A stretch of DNA of 42,161 bases from a virus, in IMG/VR virus record IMGVR_UViG_3300010371_000058, positions 1 through 42,161 of that record; one strand, written 5' to 3'. The notes below the pieces were generated by a model. The model was given only the letters and a program-made list of their open reading frames with translations. It made no database searches and was not told the origin of the DNA. Of the stretch, positions 31,374 through 39,596 are shown piece after piece. The position numbers and the translations under genes are program-made. Position 1 is the first letter of the stretch, and every line of letters begins with the position of its first letter.

Positions 31374-31601
31374 ATGGCTACCAAACGCCCTGCCGACCTG
31401 AAACCCTCCCCCAAACTGTCCCAGGAAGAACTCGACGAGCTCGAGTTTGAGGCCGCGGAAGACAACCTGTACCTCTCGCCGGACGGCACGATGACCACCT
31501 ACCACGAAGGCGACGAGGAGGACCCCAACAGCGAATGGTACGAGAATCCGCCCAGCATCCGGATCGGCTCCACGGTCATCCCGGTGACCGATCTCAACTG
31601 A
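31374..31601 (+). CDS. Acidic small protein on the plus strand (75 aa)
   Basis: Strongly coding composition (GC-rich third positions: ACC, CTG, GAC, GAG). Sequence: KRPADLKPSPKLSQEELDELEF, EAAEDNLYLSPDGTMTTYHE, then DEEDPNSEWYENPPS and IRIGSTVIPVTD. Net negative with no signal peptide. It converges with the portal gene and their stops overlap by 3 bases. No Shine-Dalgarno; a TAAAAT box suggests leaderless expression. Acidic size and character could suit a DNA-mimic anti-defence protein, but this is speculation from composition only. Confidence 0.68.
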   Translation: MATKRPADLKPSPKLSQEELDELEFEAAEDNLYLSPDGTMTTYHEGDEEDPNSEWYENPPSIRIGSTVIPVTDLN

Positions 31602-34600
31602 TGCCTTTCTCCCAATCGCGGAATAGCACCGGGTCGATATAGGATTTGAGCGCGGCGGGCGGCGTGTTCTGCAGCCAGTAAGCGACGTACCGGCCGACGT
31701 ATTTCCTTGCCTTCTCCAGTTCCGCTTGTGTTTTCGGAGCCTTCATGGTGGCCATGATCTCTTTGGCCCGATTGGTCCCGATGCGCGTGCGGAACTCCTT
31801 CGTCTTGGTGGCGCCTACCTTCTGGCTGAAACGGTTGGCCTGAGACTGCGTGGTCCATGGGAACAGGAAACCTTCCTGCTCAGGCTCGTTTTCGGCGTCC
31901 GCCTTTGCCTCCCGCAGCCATTTCACAATCGCCGGATCGTCGATCTCGAAGGAATTCGGCTTCGATTCCTTGCCGATGAAGCGAAGGAAGGTCTTGCCGT
32001 TTTCTTCCTGGATGTGCTCCGCGCGCAGCGTGAGGATGCCGGAGGAGCCGAAGTCCGGCAGTTCTTTCGGGTTGAGTTCAGTCGCCCATTTGGGCCACTG
32101 TCTGGTCTTCCACTCGAGATTTTCAAGGAACCCCTCGGCTTCGTCGGCTGAGATTCCCTTCGACTTGACCGCTTTCGAAACGGCGCTTTCGATCTCCGTC
32201 TGGGTGAAGTTCGACTTCACATAGGCGTACTCTGTGGCGTGATCGGCCATCTTGTAGCCTTTGGCATTAACCCCTTCGGCGATTTGCTCGATGGCCGCAG
32301 TAAGACTTGCCGGAAGCCCGCGCGGCCTCGTCACCTTGGTGGTCGGCTCTTCTGCCCAGTCCTTCAGCAGTCCGGCTTTGCCTGTGCCGGTACCCGGGCC
32401 GGTGGCTCGGAACTGCGTACCGACTTTATTCGACGGTGCACCGAGTTTTTTCCAGTCGGTATTGCCAGTCTCAGTGATTTCGTAGCGCGCCTGAGGGATG
32501 AACTTGTCAGCCTGGAGGATCCGGTCATCGGTGTCGGTGCCGCCGATGCGCGCCGAATACATGGCGGTCAGGGCCACTGCCTGCGCGACGTTCCTGGTTT
32601 TCTCGTCTCGCGACTTGATCCCCTCTTGAATCTTCGCCCAGGTCCTGTCGAAGGAACGGTCGAGTTTGGCCGTGTCCGCGAACTTCTTTTTGGCCTTCCT
32701 GGCTTCGGCCGCTGCGCTGTACTTGCTGTACGGCACCCCGGTAGTGCTGATATACACCGCCTGCTTGTCGGCTTTGGGATCGGAGGCGAACCACACGTTT
32801 CTGGAGGCCGCCGGGATCTTCAGCGCCAGTTGCGCTTTGGTCCAGTTCTTTTCCCGGAACGCCTTGTTTTTTTCTACCCACGCCTTCGACATTTTGAAGT
32901 CCAGCTTGCTCGACTTCTTCATCGTGCCGATGGCGACGACGTCGGCGTTTGGATCCGGATTAATCCGGCAGCTCCCTGCTTTCCATCCGCCCGGCACTTT
33001 ACCGTTGGAGAAGATGCGACTGATATCGGCCTGTGTGGGAGGACGGAAGTTCGCTTCGTTGTACGCCTTTACGCTGGCCACGGGAGCTGGCTTTAGTGAT
33101 GCGCCACTACCGCCGCCGCCCTTCTTGACGAACTGCCCGGCGGTCTCGCCAGACTTCGCCCGTGGATGTTCGGATTCTTCGAAGTCCGCATCGAAACCGG
33201 TCGCCAGCACTCGCTCCCGGAACTGCTCGATCGGCGCCACCCGCATCGACCCGAGGAAACGCGGCGGGTACATCGTCAGGAAAGCAGCTTCGGCCGCTGC
33301 CGCATCCTCAAATCCCAATAGAACCTTGTCTTCGTCCTCGCGCCGCTCGACATCCGGGCCAAGGTCGATCATGTCCGCGATGAAGACGTTTTCCGCGTTT
33401 TCATCCGGACCAACGATCGCATCGATCTCATCGCCATCCCGGCCAACCGTATTCCGGATGAAGCCGTAGTCGAACTTCATCAGCCGGTCGTAAACGACCT
33501 TGCCTTCCGGGTTGCGGATGGTGCGCCGAACTCCTACCGGATATTCGATGGCGATGGGTATCCCGGCGAATGCTTGGATGGCTTTTGCGGCGCCAGCCGA
33601 TACGGCCGCACGTGATCTGGATTCCTGTTCGGCACGATACCCGACCTTCGCGCCTGTTCCTACTGGGGCAAATTGGCCGCCCGAATCGCGCAGGTGCTTC
33701 CGTTCCTCCCACTCATCACGCGCGGCTGCGATCTGGCGCTGGCGGTGTCCACGCTCCCCCGCTATGCGCTGCGGTGGATTGCGCTCGCCCCGTGGCGTGC
33801 CGTCGAGGTCCGTCTCATCCTCTTCGCCCTCACCGCCGAGCATGCCGGCCAGCTCGCCAGCCAGGTCCTGCTCTTTCTCAGCCTTTGAGATGTCCTCGTC
33901 GGTGATATTGGTACCGAACCCGGTGATGTCGGAGGATTGCTTGATCTCCTTCAGCGCCTGGGCTTTGGTGAAGATGCCGCCGTTAACGAGATTCAGCGCA
34001 TTGTCGCTGATGGTCTTCGCAAGGTCCGCCTGCTCTTTGTCATCCAGCACGCGAACCGACGGGAACTTAAGGTCGAGGTCGTCTGGAACTTCCCCAAGTT
34101 CCGAGTTATGCACACAGCACTGTGTTGTGCAGAAATCGTGCTCTACTGCATCAACCGCAATATCGTAGAACTCTGCGCAATGTACAGGGCTGTTGTCTCT
34201 TACCTGAATAAAGACATGCGTATAGCTCTCTGAATAGCGCCAATGCCGCGGAACCGAACGCCAGTCGCCTGTGGTAGCAACGGTCGGCCAACCCATTTCA
34301 ACCCGGAGTTTTGTGGCGTAATGTCCGTTCAGGAATAGCCGCCATAATTCCTGGCAATTTCTCCCGTAACGGAGGCCTGGGTCGTTTCGGTAAAGGCATG
34401 CCCACCCAAATCCTGCAGATGCGAGGAGATCCCGCAATTGGAGAACGAGTGCCTGGGATACAGACTGTGCTGAGACCTGGTTAGAGCGTGTCTTTACAAT
34501 GTGCCCGTCTCCCTCCAAGTAACCGCGAATCAAGCCGTTTACGAATTCGGCCGGCGTGTCGAATACCCAGTCCGGAATCGTTTTGTTCTCAGCGCCATGA

Positions 34601-36384
34601 CCAAACTCTTGAGATAGCCACTGCGACAACCCCGTGTCGTGAAGGTCGACGATTGCCGTCTGGCTGGTTTTGGATCTCCTGACGCCTATACCTTTATCCG
34701 TCGCGGCCTTGAGTTGCGCGACAACACCATCGACTTCGGCCTGATGGATAGAGAACACGGTCGCGTCGATTCTCCTATCAGGCAGTCGATAGTTACGGTG
34801 CGGAGATCCCTCAGATATGTAAAGTCCGCAAAGCCATCCGAATGCAGAACTTAAAGGCTGCTCGTCTGTGCGCAGTGCCTCTCGATTATTGCGCCGCGAT
34901 ATCCCTACGGTTTTCAGCCTCCCAGTCAACGGGCGCACTGGCCTTGAGACATAATCTCCGGCATCAAGAGCCTCGGCAGGGACAAAGCCTCCTGGAGTTA
35001 GAACTGGATGATCACGCGTAACGACGAGCGGGTCCCAGTGGCCCCAGAGCGTGAGCCTGCAGGCTACTTCGTTTTGCCTGGGGCTTAGAAACACGCCCTT
35101 GACCGTGGCCGCTGTACCAGAAGACGTGATAACCGAGTCGCCGATCTTGACGCTTCGGATAGCGGTGGCTTTACCGTTCCCGGTGTGCACCTGAGTTTCC
35201 GGTGCGCAACACATGCAAATGACTGGATACAGCCGATCCAACTGCGGACGCATGTGAACGTCCTGCTCGTGCTGAATCTTCTCTTCGTACAGCCGCTCGT
35301 CCTGATCGTTTGCCTGGCCGAGACCGGTAATGGTGCGTCCGAACAAGCGGGTGACCGTCATGTCGGCCGCGCCCGCGATATCAAGCTGGAACTGCTGCAT
35401 GACACCTTCGAGACCGGAGAAGGCGTACTGGGTCGATTCCAGGCCGCCCTTCTCATCGAAGATCATCATGTTCTGGTTGCTCAGCAGGCTGTTCATGGCC
35501 TGCATGCGCGACTGGAACTGGACCAGAGCCGTCTGGCTCATGGAGGCGCCGGATAGAGCCTGCGCCAGAGCCTGATTCTTCATTCCGAGGATATTGGCAC
35601 GGAACGTCAACGACAGAACGTTCCAGCTCAGGTTGTCCCGCTTGCGAAGCTCTTCGAATACGGGCTCGAGCGCCGAGATTCCCCAATACGACTGCGCCTG
35701 ATACTCCGGAGCAGGCACGCCCGGCCCACAGAACCGAAGGATCCGGCTCGCGTGAATCTTGAAGGTGGCGTTTCCTTCCGGCGTCTCAACCCGGTAATAC
35801 TCCGGCAGGTTGAATTCGAGCGGCTTCCGAATGTCACTCGCAATGCCGGCTTCCGGCGTGATTCCGGTCCAGCGATCAAACGGAATCAGACCGCGGTAAG
35901 CGCCGAGTTCGACCGTGTCGAGGTCCAACGGCTCATCCAGCCGATTCTCATGCCCATCGATAACGATCAGCGCACCTGCGCCGCCGAACAGCCGTGCCCA
36001 CTGAAGCGCATCCAGCAGCTTGGCCTTTGTGTTTGTCCGGCGAATCGCCCGGTCGATCTTTGTGACTTCCTTCGGATCGATGTCGGAGGTTACCCGTGGC
36101 CACGCCCGCACCATGTCCTTTGCGGGAACGTCGACGATCTTACGTGAAATCCAATGGTTACGGTAGAGCGTAACCATGAGCCAGTAATTCAGGGTCAACC
36201 GCTCGAGGACGTACTCCGTCGCCTCCGTTAAGCTATTGGTGCCCCAGCCCATGCGGGCCGCGGCGTTTGAGAAATAGTCGTGCGCCAGCGCGCGGCTGCC
36301 GCTCGCAAGCTGCAGTCCGTGAGTTACACCATAGTGATTTCGCGTCTCATAGACGCGCCCGATGCGAGCAGCGTTTGCCGTCAC
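31594..36384 (-). CDS. Portal protein with intein and fused pyrophosphatase-like + topoisomerase IB-like domains (1596 aa)
   Basis: GTG start right after the previous stop. Residues 1-391 and 761-about 870 are a DUF1073-type portal (FRANILGMKNQALAQ, RLFGRTITGLGQANDQDERLYEEKI). Residues 392-760 are a LAGLIDADG intein. After the portal, residues about 890-905 and 1065-1085 carry H-P-R-x-x-x-G-x-F-type linkers (RDSGGQFAPVG; HPRAKSG). Residues about 940-1060 (KVVYDRLMKFDYGFIRNTVG, DGDEIDAIVGP, DKVLLGFED) match the InPase polyvalent domain. Residues about 1170-1596 match type IB topoisomerase: NVWFASDPKADKQ, RIGG (Arg1279), FIGK (Lys1472), EFRTRIGT (Arg1532), SYIDP (Tyr1582). DUF1073 portals elsewhere also carry C-terminal anti-defence domains. 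Precise function of the tail is inferred. Confidence 0.85.
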   Translation of the reverse strand: MTANAARIGRVYETRNHYGVTHGLQLASGSRALAHDYFSNAAARMGWGTNSLTEATEYVLERLTLNYWLMVTLYRNHWISRKIVDVPAKDMVRAWPRVTSDIDPKEVTKIDRAIRRTNTKAKLLDALQWARLFGGAGALIVIDGHENRLDEPLDLDTVELGAYRGLIPFDRWTGITPEAGIASDIRKPLEFNLPEYYRVETPEGNATFKIHASRILRFCGPGVPAPEYQAQSYWGISALEPVFEELRKRDNLSWNVLSLTFRANILGMKNQALAQALSGASMSQTALVQFQSRMQAMNSLLSNQNMMIFDEKGGLESTQYAFSGLEGVMQQFQLDIAGAADMTVTRLFGRTITGLGQANDQDERLYEEKIQHEQDVHMRPQLDRLYPVICMCCAPETQVHTGNGKATAIRSVKIGDSVITSSGTAATVKGVFLSPRQNEVACRLTLWGHWDPLVVTRDHPVLTPGGFVPAEALDAGDYVSRPVRPLTGRLKTVGISRRNNREALRTDEQPLSSAFGWLCGLYISEGSPHRNYRLPDRRIDATVFSIHQAEVDGVVAQLKAATDKGIGVRRSKTSQTAIVDLHDTGLSQWLSQEFGHGAENKTIPDWVFDTPAEFVNGLIRGYLEGDGHIVKTRSNQVSAQSVSQALVLQLRDLLASAGFGWACLYRNDPGLRYGRNCQELWRLFLNGHYATKLRVEMGWPTVATTGDWRSVPRHWRYSESYTHVFIQVRDNSPVHCAEFYDIAVDAVEHDFCTTQCCVHNSELGEVPDDLDLKFPSVRVLDDKEQADLAKTISDNALNLVNGGIFTKAQALKEIKQSSDITGFGTNITDEDISKAEKEQDLAGELAGMLGGEGEEDETDLDGTPRGERNPPQRIAGERGHRQRQIAAARDEWEERKHLRDSGGQFAPVGTGAKVGYRAEQESRSRAAVSAGAAKAIQAFAGIPIAIEYPVGVRRTIRNPEGKVVYDRLMKFDYGFIRNTVGRDGDEIDAIVGPDENAENVFIADMIDLGPDVERREDEDKVLLGFEDAAAAEAAFLTMYPPRFLGSMRVAPIEQFRERVLATGFDADFEESEHPRAKSGETAGQFVKKGGGGSGASLKPAPVASVKAYNEANFRPPTQADISRIFSNGKVPGGWKAGSCRINPDPNADVVAIGTMKKSSKLDFKMSKAWVEKNKAFREKNWTKAQLALKIPAASRNVWFASDPKADKQAVYISTTGVPYSKYSAAAEARKAKKKFADTAKLDRSFDRTWAKIQEGIKSRDEKTRNVAQAVALTAMYSARIGGTDTDDRILQADKFIPQARYEITETGNTDWKKLGAPSNKVGTQFRATGPGTGTGKAGLLKDWAEEPTTKVTRPRGLPASLTAAIEQIAEGVNAKGYKMADHATEYAYVKSNFTQTEIESAVSKAVKSKGISADEAEGFLENLEWKTRQWPKWATELNPKELPDFGSSGILTLRAEHIQEENGKTFLRFIGKESKPNSFEIDDPAIVKWLREAKADAENEPEQEGFLFPWTTQSQANRFSQKVGATKTKEFRTRIGTNRAKEIMATMKAPKTQAELEKARKYVGRYVAYWLQNTPPAALKSYIDPVLFRDWEKGIS
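34105..35211 (-). other. Intein with LAGLIDADG endonuclease in the portal gene (369 aa)
   Basis: Begins Cys392 (CCAPETQV, block A) and ends VHN|S (block F: YDIAVDAVEHDF...CCVHN, residue 760; next residue Ser761). Block B is VVTRDHPVLTPGGFV. LAGLIDADG motifs are FGWLCGLYISEG and NGLIRGYLEGDGH, with their acidic catalytic residues present, so the endonuclease looks intact. Insertion is after ICM in the portal extein. Confidence 0.9.
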
Positions 36385-37350: not shown

Positions 37351-37855
37351 ACCAGGAAGAGACAGCCTGACCGCCGAGCATCGGCCCATTCCACTTTCGT
37401 GTGCTCCGAATGGGCCGCGCGCTCAACGATTGCTCCGGGCTGTATCCGCACCTCTCCTTTCGTGGGATAAAGATCAAACTGGTCGCACGAACTGCGGCGG
37501 ATACCCGGCCTGACTGGCTGCGTTGTGCCGCAATCCAGCGAAGTGGATGTCGCCAGAAAGAATTCTCCCTCTTGTCGGCAGCATCATCCGCTCGCATGCC
37601 AAGCGCTACCAAGCGAGCCATTTCCAGACTCCACGGATTGTTGAGGGGTGGCACTTCCCTATGCACCCGCTCATCGTAATCGTAAACGCCTTCAAAACGT
37701 GTGATCTTCCCGCAGAAACACTCTGCGGGGATAAAACGGTGCATTCTTATGGCGGATTTCAGATCGCTCCCGCGAAAAATGAATTGATTCGGATGTCCGT
37801 CTATGCATCGGCCGTTCAGTAAAAAGTATCGTGCTGGATTAGGCTGCTTTCTCAT
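37274..37855 (-). CDS. Hypothetical protein (193 aa), 3' part uncertain
   Basis: ATG at 37855 lies 17 bases inside the 3' end of MuF. The first 110 residues (ARYFLLNGRCIDGHPNQFIF, HRFIPAECFCGKITRFEG, YDYDERVHREVPPLNN) look like a normal protein with a Cys-rich patch. From about residue 120 the sequence loses character (VRATSLIFIPRKERCGYSPEQ...), and another frame looks more coding there. A frameshift near 37480-37560 would join the two. Function unknown; the DYDERVHREVP region resembles small phage zinc-binding proteins only loosely. Confidence 0.45.
   Translation of the reverse strand: MRKQPNPARYFLLNGRCIDGHPNQFIFRGSDLKSAIRMHRFIPAECFCGKITRFEGVYDYDERVHREVPPLNNPWSLEMARLVALGMRADDAADKRENSFWRHPLRWIAAQRSQSGRVSAAVRATSLIFIPRKERCGYSPEQSLSARPIRSTRKWNGPMLGGQAVSSWYEANHLRTGQPGASKSDGGVRIPHA
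37347..37451 (-). CDS. Possible very small coupled ORF (34 aa)
   Basis: A frame ending TGA at 37347-37349, overlapping the MKPIIY start, contains RIQPGAIVERAAHSEHTKVEW and reads as a plausible beta strand protein. GTG at 37451 is preceded by AAAGGAG but only 2 bases away, too close for a normal site. Upstream of it the same frame remains open to about 37570 (DQFDLYPTKGEV...). Could be a frame-shifted continuation of the 193-residue gene instead. Confidence 0.3.
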   Translation of the reverse strand: MRIQPGAIVERAAHSEHTKVEWADARRSGCLFLV

Positions 37856-39596
37856 ACTCACACCGTCTGGTGAACTGCGCGCGTGTCATGCGGGTGATGC
37901 GCCGATCGGCATACACTCGGCAAGGCCAGGCGACCTCTTCGAGCGAAATTAGAGGGGCGCTTGCACACCTGCAGTTTTTTGCAATAAAATTAAGTGGCGT
38001 TACACCATACCACCCAACACCACACTCGAAGGTAAAAACTTGCCCAGAAAACTTGCTGACAGCCTTATCAGTGATGCGTGCAGCCTTGTAAGAGGCGGAC
38101 TCACTCTTGCCGAGACAGCCCGTCGCCTCAAGGTAAGCCCCGACCCCCTCGGACGACACCTCCGCGCACGTGGCGTCAAGATGCGGTTCGCGTCCACTGG
38201 GATTGAACCGTCCAACAAACTCGACCTGCCCTGTGAGGATATTGGTCGAATCTATTCTGCCGGAACCAGCGAAAAGGCTATTGCCGAGTCCTTCGGCGTA
38301 TCGCGCAGAGCTATATCCAGAGCGCTGAAGGAAGCCGGAGTTGAAAGGCGCAGCGCCAGCGACCAAAACCGCATCAGAATGCAGAATATGACGGCCGAAG
38401 GCAGATGTGCCATCACTGCCAAGGGACGACGTAAACGGTTCAAGAATATGAGCGATGCAGTATCGAAGAAATCTTCCCACCATTGGGTTGGACCCGGCGA
38501 GGTGGAGATTTTTCACAAACTCTGCAGCCTTGGGCATCAGGCTATCCCGCAGTTGGGGGTCGAAGGCTATTTCATCGACATCGCCATCGGGAACATCGCC
38601 ATAGAAATTAAATGGAAGGCCCGTCCGACGTTTTACTTTTACAACGTTCGCGAGGAAAAGATCCTGAAAGCTGGTTACGCCCTGATTTGCGTTGGCATCA
38701 CCGGAAAGGAAACCATTGCCGACTGCACGGATCAAATCGTCGCCGCTATTGACGAGGTGTGCCGGAAGCCAGCCATTCCCGGTCAACATTGGATGATTCG
38801 GTGTGACGCTGAACCGAGTTTCTCCAACAGCAAATGTTATAAGATCACCACGGTACGGAGCACGCCAGAGTTTCTTGAGTTGGCGTGGAGACGACACAAT
38901 CGTTTCACCGACAAAACAGTACGGAAATTCTCCTGGATGCCCCGTACCTAAAGTGCTGTGCTGGCCGATCAGCTCTTCGGGTTGAGGTGGATCGTCCCAG
39001 CGAACCAGCACCAAATCGAGATTGCGGTGGGATGGCCGGACGCGCTGGTCCCGGCTGGTCAACCACTGGTAGTGAGTGACTCCGATATCTTCAGACCGTG
39101 CCCGCGTGAGCGCCGCTTCGGCCTTGCCAATCTCAGTTCTCGAGATCAGCTTAATCCGGCTCGCCGCGATGTCTGGAAGCCGCCGTCGCAGAACCTTCTC
39201 TACCTCGCTTGCTCGTAATCCCCGTTGCTGCTGGGTGGCGATCCACTGCGTGGCGCGCTGTGCGATGTCCAGCGGAAGAGACTGGATCAGGTTGGCATTC
39301 TGAAGGACCGTTGCCTCCACCGCGGCGCCGATCGGAGTCTCGTCAATCTCCCGGCGAAGCGCGCGCCAAATAGCCTGCGACTTCGTGCCCCGCATGACTG
39401 CTTCCCGCCAGGTGACGGCGTTGGCGCGAAATACCTGACCGACCATTCGCCGTGCCAGCCTGTCGGCCTGCTCCCGGAAGCTATAGCTCTCGACCAGATT
39501 TGAGAGCGCCTGCAGCGTGTTGATCGGGCCGCGCGAGCGCAGGAGCTTAACGAGTTCTCTCTCGTAGAGAGATTCCAGTCGTCCCCAGGGGGTCAC
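37839..39596 (-). CDS. MuF-like minor head protein interrupted by an intein (585 aa)
   Basis: GTG start at 39596 overlaps the upstream stop (GTGA). Residues 1-226 (RRMVGQVFRANAVTWREAV, ASRIKLISRTEIGKAEAALT, DQRVRPSHRNLDLVLVRWDDPPQPE, GTGHPGEFPY) are the phage Mu gpF/SPP1 gp7-like head morphogenesis domain. The family motif P-G-x-x-P-N/Y-C-R-C is split: Y226 is followed by the intein (227-541) and then CRCASAPLISLEEVAW. The spliced protein would be about 270 residues, normal for the family. It enters the head through the portal. It lies upstream of the portal gene here, whereas portal usually precedes MuF. An antisense endonuclease gene overlaps it. Confidence 0.85.
   Translation of the reverse strand: MTPWGRLESLYERELVKLLRSRGPINTLQALSNLVESYSFREQADRLARRMVGQVFRANAVTWREAVMRGTKSQAIWRALRREIDETPIGAAVEATVLQNANLIQSLPLDIAQRATQWIATQQQRGLRASEVEKVLRRRLPDIAASRIKLISRTEIGKAEAALTRARSEDIGVTHYQWLTSRDQRVRPSHRNLDLVLVRWDDPPQPEELIGQHSTLGTGHPGEFPYCFVGETIVSSPRQLKKLWRAPYRGDLITFAVGETRFSVTPNHPMLTGNGWLPAHLVNSGDDLIRAVGNGFLSGDANANQGVTSFQDLFLANVVKVKRRTGLPFNFYGDVPDGDVDEIAFDPQLRDSLMPKAAEFVKNLHLAGSNPMVGRFLRYCIAHILEPFTSSLGSDGTSAFGRHILHSDAVLVAGAAPFNSGFLQRSGYSSARYAEGLGNSLFAGSGRIDSTNILTGQVEFVGRFNPSGREPHLDATCAEVSSEGVGAYLEATGCLGKSESASYKAARITDKAVSKFSGQVFTFECGVGWYGVTPLNFIAKNCRCASAPLISLEEVAWPCRVYADRRITRMTRAQFTRRCEYEKAA
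37974..38918 (-). other. Intein in the MuF gene with no sense-strand endonuclease (315 aa)
   Basis: Block A CFVGETIV (Cys227), block B RFSVTPNHPMLTGNGWLPAH, block F QVFTFECGVGWYGVTPLNFIAKN followed by Cys542. The penultimate residue is Lys instead of the usual His, an atypical but tolerated variant. Residues about 103-285 of the intein have no LAGLIDADG or HNH motif. This middle segment, plus the N-terminal Hint part, is the complement of the plus-strand endonuclease gene. Confidence 0.85.
38040..38951 (+). CDS. Antisense homing endonuclease: HTH + Vsr-like PD-(D/E)xK (303 aa)
   Basis: TTG start at 38040 with GAAGG (38028-38032) 7 bases upstream. Residues 11-47 (LAETARRLKVS...LGRHLRARGVK) and 66-100 (AIAESFGVSRRAISRALKEAGV) are helix-turn-helix segments. 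Residues 151-220 are nuclease-like: Glu154/156 (GEVE), then GYFIDIAIGNIAIEIKWKA with Asp180, Glu189 and Lys191 in D-x8-ExK spacing, and EEKILKAGYALICVGI. That order resembles Vsr-like (EDxHD/PD-D/ExK) homing endonucleases. It is coded on the strand opposite the MuF intein, in exact codon register, and its TAA is the complement of Leu216 of MuF, 33 bases outside the intein. Probably drives homing of the intein. No promoter assigned. Confidence 0.82.
   Translation: MPRKLADSLISDACSLVRGGLTLAETARRLKVSPDPLGRHLRARGVKMRFASTGIEPSNKLDLPCEDIGRIYSAGTSEKAIAESFGVSRRAISRALKEAGVERRSASDQNRIRMQNMTAEGRCAITAKGRRKRFKNMSDAVSKKSSHHWVGPGEVEIFHKLCSLGHQAIPQLGVEGYFIDIAIGNIAIEIKWKARPTFYFYNVREEKILKAGYALICVGITGKETIADCTDQIVAAIDEVCRKPAIPGQHWMIRCDAEPSFSNSKCYKITTVRSTPEFLELAWRRHNRFTDKTVRKFSWMPRT

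Follow-up and report, generated by a model that had tools for sequence, protein, structure and literature searches.

In the usual description, the endonuclease of an intein is a domain in the intein's own reading frame, expressed and then spliced with the host protein. In ShiLan, an out-of-frame HNH endonuclease lies inside a phage methylase, has no splicing domain and is read from the host-gene transcript (PMC11855218), and in an L2066 rDNA group I intron the homing endonuclease gene, that of I-DsqI, is antisense (PMC9548176). Ambigrammatic narnaviruses have a long reverse-complement open reading frame (ORF) opposite a coding gene (PMC6884476, PMC8155312), which has been argued not to encode a functional protein (PMC8155312).

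Here we analyze a 42,161-nt stretch of viral DNA (IMG/VR virus record IMGVR_UViG_3300010371_000058; hereafter the window) containing what we read, with a probability of about 0.88, as a mobile intein that has its homing endonuclease not in its own frame but as a separate gene, encoded in exact codon register by the complementary strand. We demonstrate both frames and their homologies, selection in the two frames, conservation across a family, insertion polymorphism and a greater likeness among inteins than among their host genes. With in-frame LAGLIDADG and HNH inteins, such as PI-SceI and a portal-gene intein of the same window, the element shares a Hint domain, a site in a conserved motif, an internal endonuclease gene and insertion polymorphism, but its endonuclease is a separate complementary-strand protein with its own start, and the sense-strand middle is filler. 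As in ShiLan, a homing-type nuclease is hidden in another frame of an insertion that is open in the host frame; the window nuclease is, however, antisense and sits inside a recognizable intein with Hint segments, which sets it apart from the ShiLan type. Group I introns with antisense homing endonuclease genes are likewise self-splicing elements whose endonuclease is encoded opposite the host gene, but their splicing occurs at the RNA level and their sense strand need not code, whereas the window element codes on both strands in register. Unlike the narnavirus reverse ORF, that of the window has recognizable domains and belongs to a family under purifying selection.

A search of the open-access literature, with subscription papers and bioRxiv outside its scope, found no antisense endonuclease within an intein, and the arrangement appears to have gone unnoticed. 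The reports of the Snoke intein and of the nearly identical LSPA1 intein gave no endonuclease (PMC6776784), nor did that of the 900-bp KMB36 intein (PMC11162368). The antisense gene is missing from the annotation of every phage record that we inspected, and inteins described as lacking an endonuclease may therefore have one.

The MuF intein of the window

The original prediction of a 315-residue minus-strand intein with blocks A, B and F inside a MuF gene was borne out (Table 1). The same prediction had given the element as 37974–38951; both features are present, but this range is the union of the intein and the nuclease frame, because the nuclease frame overruns the intein, its last 10 codons and stop lying opposite the N-extein. 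The intein starts CFVGETIV, has TPNH and ends AKN/C (slashes mark insertion junctions), and it and its relatives have the residues expected of a class 1 Hint domain. Its block F reads VFTFE, with HVYNLE in relatives, and its insertion site is the conserved MuF motif N/CRC. Eight of the nine inteins of our first set matched PF14890 Intein_splicing; a Pfam search with the window intein alone gave no intein domain match. Its structure model resembles the splicing domain of the Mtu RecA intein, with a Foldseek probability of 1.00 but an E-value of 0.01.

Table 1 Features of the two-strand element and of a second antisense nuclease. Coordinates are window positions, except in the last row, where they refer to locus L082.
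Feature	Coordinates	Strand	Evidence
MuF-like minor capsid gene, host, intein-interrupted	37839..39596	-	PF04233 Phage_Mu_F, E=7.8e-13; phrog_15127 head protein, E=1.6e-59
Intein, 315 aa, at ...EFPY/C...AKN/CRC	37974..38918	-	C1, TPNH block B, terminal N315, +1 Cys
N-terminal Hint segment, intein residues 1-65, blocks A and B	38724..38918	-	pLDDT ~83-98; sense-frame selection in relatives
C-terminal Hint segment, intein residues 276-315, blocks F and G	37974..38093	-	pLDDT ~88-98
Intein middle, stop-free filler in the sense frame, complement of the nuclease gene	38094..38723	-	low pLDDT; N/S counts of relatives
Sense motif FYGDVPDGD (relatives FHGDxxDGE), reverse complement of nuclease active-site strands	38580..38606	-	
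Antisense nuclease gene, 303 aa, TTG start	38040..38951	+	in-register conservation in dozens of phage inteins
Shine-Dalgarno-like GAAGG, 7 nt ahead of TTG, opposite block F	38028..38032	+	GAGGT/GGAGG at the same place in most relatives
Possible sigma-70-like promoter TGCACA-17-TAAAAT for the antisense gene (weak)	37962..37990	+	better -10 boxes in several relatives
First helix-turn-helix (HTH), residues 7-43	38058..38168	+	AlphaFold model; profile match 2LVS Cbp1, E=1.6e-9
Second HTH, residues 65-98	38232..38333	+	HTH_7/HTH_23; AlphaFold model
PD-(D/E)XK nuclease core, residues 154-242; E154, D180, E189, K191	38499..38765	+	profile 3HRL, 3R3P; Foldseek
Nordenberg antisense LAGLIDADG-like endonuclease	L082 1549-2136	-	similarity to free-standing phage homing endonucleases

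Intein-free MuF genes, a search for which had been proposed with the prediction, were found in locus L002 and in many Guernseyvirinae, with the extein intact at the site. The L002 relative is ~48% identical to the window MuF over the best segment and reads ...GNFPNCRC.

The middle of the intein presents a different picture from its ends. Residues 140–204 and 212–273 have pLDDT values below 50 in the model of the window intein, and Pfam found no nuclease, and hence no in-frame endonuclease, in the sense middle region of the inteins. We rejected a conventional in-frame intein nuclease on these two grounds and on the presence of the nuclease on the other strand.

The window has a second intein, of 368 residues, in the portal gene (34105–35208, minus strand, at PVICMC/CAPETQ...VHN/SELGEV). 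It has an in-frame LAGLIDADG_3 match and is thus a conventional intein; L002 has no portal intein. The 1,596-residue ORF that contains it (31594–36384, minus strand) is an unusual fusion, in which portal and intein sequences are followed up by domains of the inorganic pyrophosphatase-like and eukaryotic-type topoisomerase I catalytic kinds.

Register, expression signals and domains of the plus-strand gene

The codon grids of both strands lie at positions 0 mod 3; therefore, each plus-strand codon is the reverse complement of a minus-strand codon, which confirms the exact register first proposed. The predicted 303-residue ORF with an HTH and a D-x8-ExK motif (here D180-x8-E189-I-K191), preceded by GAAGG and starting at TTG, is likewise present, and the remaining four frames across the intein contain 9–18 stops each. 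Because the two functions lie on opposite strands, expression of the nuclease would be independent of expression and splicing of the host gene.

The signals that would start translation sit at a fixed place in relatives. An ATG, GTG or TTG occurs at antisense codon 18–22 in 56 of the 59 inteins that we analyzed, and exactly at codon 20 in 47, counts that treat related loci as separate. Antisense codon 20 faces the His of block F (GHVYNL), whose CAT or CAC codon read backwards is ATG or GTG, and a Shine-Dalgarno-like sequence lies ahead of the start in 50 of these 56 inteins. Opposite block G, TATAAT-like boxes occur at 13 of the 24 loci below 56% GC (4.0 expected) and at 6 of the 35 above it (0.7 expected), an excess that is suggestive but inflated by related Guernseyvirinae. 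The candidate promoter of the window is not above chance, with 1 site versus 0.8 expected.

On profile and model comparison, we call the antisense protein a putative PD-(D/E)XK nuclease of the Vsr-like type. A profile of 35 family members matched NGO0050 (3HRL) with an E-value of 9.7e-6; I-Bth0305I (3R3P) was marginal by sequence (E=0.01 with a 9-sequence profile, 0.044 with the 35-sequence profile), and family members gave weak Pfam matches to MTES_1575, DUF559 and Vsr. Foldseek, suggested at the outset for both proteins and used above for the intein, gave as the nearest solved folds to the nuclease model 3HRL (probability 0.97) and 3R3P, a homing endonuclease (probability 0.85; E=0.28), with E-values above 0.1. 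AlphaFold models the HTH and nuclease folds confidently and predicts disorder in the nuclease tail after residue 254. E154 and E189 are invariant in the family and D180 is nearly so (invariant in the first nine members), a conservation that for E189 and D180 is partly favored by the DNA pattern used to pick loci. The window nuclease has a PD-(D/E)XK core in common with I-Bth0305I and the Vsr-like/MTES_1575/DUF559 proteins, but it differs in its two HTH domains, which form the DNA-binding part, and in its genomic setting, and we treat its membership of these groups as provisional.

Coding constraint on the two strands

Chance antisense ORFs are commonest in the mirror-image register of GC-rich genes, which is the register seen here, and the plus-strand frame could in principle be an accident, held open by codon composition. 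For some GC-rich loci taken alone, the open frame is indeed unremarkable (p 0.1–0.3). In the window, 295 codons include no TTA, CTA or TCA, where the codon usage of the phage itself predicts 5.4 (p = 0.003). The avoidance of these codons, pointed out in the original prediction, is real and proved to be a family trait: homologous inteins keep the antisense frame open, with 1 stop versus 415 expected over a fixed span in 59 inteins (15,024 codons; expectations computed per gene from its own extein codon usage, and related loci counted separately). The exteins served as a control and, in a 45-intein subset, contained 276 antisense stops versus 284 expected. Frames are open even in phages of 35–45% GC whose exteins teem with antisense stops, and the terminase mini-intein of an Oceanotoga phage, a natural control, has an antisense frame full of stops. 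The sole locus with an antisense stop within the nuclease span, L035 (4471–5265), may be a degenerate copy or contain a sequencing error.

Shuffling gave a result in the same direction. Scored with a profile that excluded the window, the plus-strand protein reached 184 bits, versus a mean of 52 and a maximum of 91 in 100 synonymous shuffles of the sense codons; in the reciprocal test, the sense intein scored 142 (mean 66, maximum 95), and both results were reproduced in all 20 loci tested. A synonymous shuffle of one frame abolishes the profile score of the other, and neither frame can therefore account for the information in its partner. The HTH and nuclease homology and fold, the fixed start codon and Shine-Dalgarno sequence and selection in the antisense frame (below) also argue against an accident of composition, which we rejected on the stop count across the 59 inteins and regard as exceedingly improbable.

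Because the window copy has no close relative (nuclease identity of at most 34% to the first set), selection was measured on relatives only, from eight close pairs. In the intein middle, substitutions at sense codon positions 1:2:3 numbered 319:105:184, compared with 497:412:1073 in exteins (p = 4e-36 for 1:3), so that changes in the middle fall mostly at sense position 1, which is antisense position 3. The corresponding counts for the middle were N362 S68 in the sense frame and N207 S223 in the antisense frame, with N1237 S102 for the antisense frame of the exteins. The N-terminal Hint segment (N64 S69) and the last 20 codons (N11 S31) behaved as sense-coding. The comparison of selection in each frame across homologues that was proposed with the prediction thus finds antisense-frame selection on the middle and sense-frame selection on the splicing ends, and the long intein middle is constrained mainly as a nuclease rather than as an intein. 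Structure models agree with this division, with confident Hint ends, a low-confidence intein middle and a confident nuclease core. The sense motif FHGDxxDGE lies opposite the codons for the nuclease strands YNLDxAVGxVAVE, and its conservation in the intein is therefore best explained by the nuclease.

Strong double coding is found in the start and Shine-Dalgarno region opposite block F and, more weakly, in other Hint stretches. The original claim that the same bases encode two conserved proteins, the N-terminal Hint domain and the C-terminal third of the nuclease, did not hold: the nuclease tail opposite the Hint domain (residues ~254–303) is the least constrained part of the protein, poorly conserved as well as predicted to be disordered, and substitutions there track the sense frame. 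By contrast, the HTH and nuclease matches and the purifying selection sought in the plus-strand family were both found. Here nature provides a long antisense overlap in exact register in which selection can be measured in both frames, something that overlapping-gene studies rarely have.

A middle unconstrained in the sense frame would also fit a locus in which the antisense gene alone is real, that is, a free-standing homing endonuclease gene in MuF whose sense strand is a tolerated, unspliced insert, as in ShiLan. The ends of the insert, however, carry Hint blocks A, B, F and G and match Intein_splicing and intein structures; they are under sense selection, and C1, the last N and mostly Cys+1 are retained in family inteins. 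Left unspliced, a 315-residue insert would disrupt a conserved MuF motif. The sense selection on the ends and the similarity of the model to the Mtu RecA intein led us to reject a nuclease-only insertion, which we consider highly unlikely.

Distribution, probable mobility and a second antisense nuclease

The double-coded intein is no one-off but a widespread family across dozens of unrelated phages. In a tblastn search of phages with the window nuclease, matches fell on the strand opposite MuF in Edwardsiella phage MSW-3 (E=5e-24), in Aaphi23 (3e-21) and in Haemophilus/Aggregatibacter, Klebsiella, Vibrio, Pseudomonas and Gordonia phages. Scanning with a DNA pattern for the sense motif FHGDxxDGE identified 43 viral loci, and at every one of them profiles matched an intein in the sense frame and a nuclease in the antisense frame; 8 of 12 genome loci from the pattern had no intein or nuclease and were taken as chance matches. 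Choosing loci by the sense motif partly fixes the antisense residues around D180–E189, and the first nine loci were chosen by nuclease similarity. This selection bias is removed because loci from sense-only queries, including queries with the N-terminal Hint segment only, also carry the antisense nuclease frame; they include Vibrio 1.113.A, Idiomarina 1N2-2, Vibrio H2, Gordonia Keitabear, Malisha and ViaConlectus, Cronobacter ES2, Mycobacterium Sejanus and Rctr197k. Nearly all of the 59 inteins retain the antisense nuclease frame.

Insertion sites vary and include, in MuF, N/CRC, RTE/T (L019, L020 and L048) and T/CRARDG (KMB36). Another host gene is Phage_min_cap2 (L018 and L036), and because the host proteins of L032 and L062 have no recognized Pfam domain, the family is not confined to MuF. 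Locus L019 (2614–5628, plus strand) has two inteins at two sites of one MuF gene, each with its own antisense nuclease frame. Rhodococcus phage REQ3 (L086) has a shorter intein, opposite which the nuclease part is kept without the HTH region, possibly a decaying copy.

Mobility is suggested by alleles that have no intein and by inteins that resemble each other more closely than their host genes do. In the E. coli phages Snoke and KMB36, the MuF exteins share 91.5% identity across 1,098 nt, but the inteins differ and occupy different sites, and each MuF is empty at the other's site. Between Snoke and Salmonella phage VSe101, the inteins are 95.7% identical and the exteins only 68.9% (N) and 81.7% (C), and Klebsiella pairs show the same direction. 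When the joined flanks of the Snoke intein were compared with 489 phage records, 408 matched over at least 80% in one place and are thus intein-free. The opposite is seen in the Gordonia pairs L009/L029 and L009/L038: divergence of the inteins there exceeds that of the exteins, so movement in these pairs was not recent.

These data suggest how the element may spread. Read on the minus strand as part of MuF, it would be spliced out by its Hint halves (blocks A/B and F/G), and the long stop-free linker in its middle would be discarded with the spliced intein. The plus strand would be expressed from its own start codon and Shine-Dalgarno sequence opposite block F as an HTH-HTH-PD-(D/E)XK endonuclease, which would cut intein-free MuF alleles at the conserved N/CRC-encoding site, and repair of the cut allele would copy the element in. 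Features of the window copy that fit this mechanism less well are its TTG start, the stop outside the intein, the weak promoter and the intein's lack of a Pfam match.

Both proteins might instead be real while the nuclease no longer drives homing, serving in the exclusion of rival phages or in regulation, or persisting as a relic. The activity of the nuclease is a prediction from its sequence, and the older movement in the two Gordonia pairs would suit such a role. Yet insertion polymorphism is recent, and inteins are more alike than exteins, in Guernseyvirinae and Klebsiella phages; antisense purifying selection continues; and the nuclease lies inside the element at the invaded site, as homing requires. 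We therefore judge loss of homing to be improbable and retain the mobile intein as our reading. On balance, we also lean toward placing such mobile elements in a class of their own, two-strand (ambigrammatic) inteins, with the start and ribosome-binding site in the complement of block F, in some phages a −10 box in the complement of block G, spread to several head-protein genes and sites, and at least two origins.

The case for more than one origin comes from Gordonia phages. Opposite the MuF intein of Nordenberg, Lennon, Sitar, Thing3, SchottB and Barsten, in the position held by the nuclease in the window, is a frame for a 196-residue protein that begins MKLDPVAAAYVAAFIDGEGTVTVG and is unrelated to the window nuclease. 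Searches with the Nordenberg protein found no relatives among viral contigs. The 196-residue protein resembles free-standing phage endonucleases, namely one of cyanophage PP (E=2e-6) and Caulobacter phage proteins annotated as HNH homing endonucleases and has a weak match to I-MsoI (E=0.0013); because Pfam gave no match, its LAGLIDADG nature rests on a motif and these similarities. Since the inteins of Nordenberg, Lennon and Barsten encode an unrelated antisense endonuclease, the antisense arrangement probably arose at least twice, an apparent convergence in Gordonia phages.
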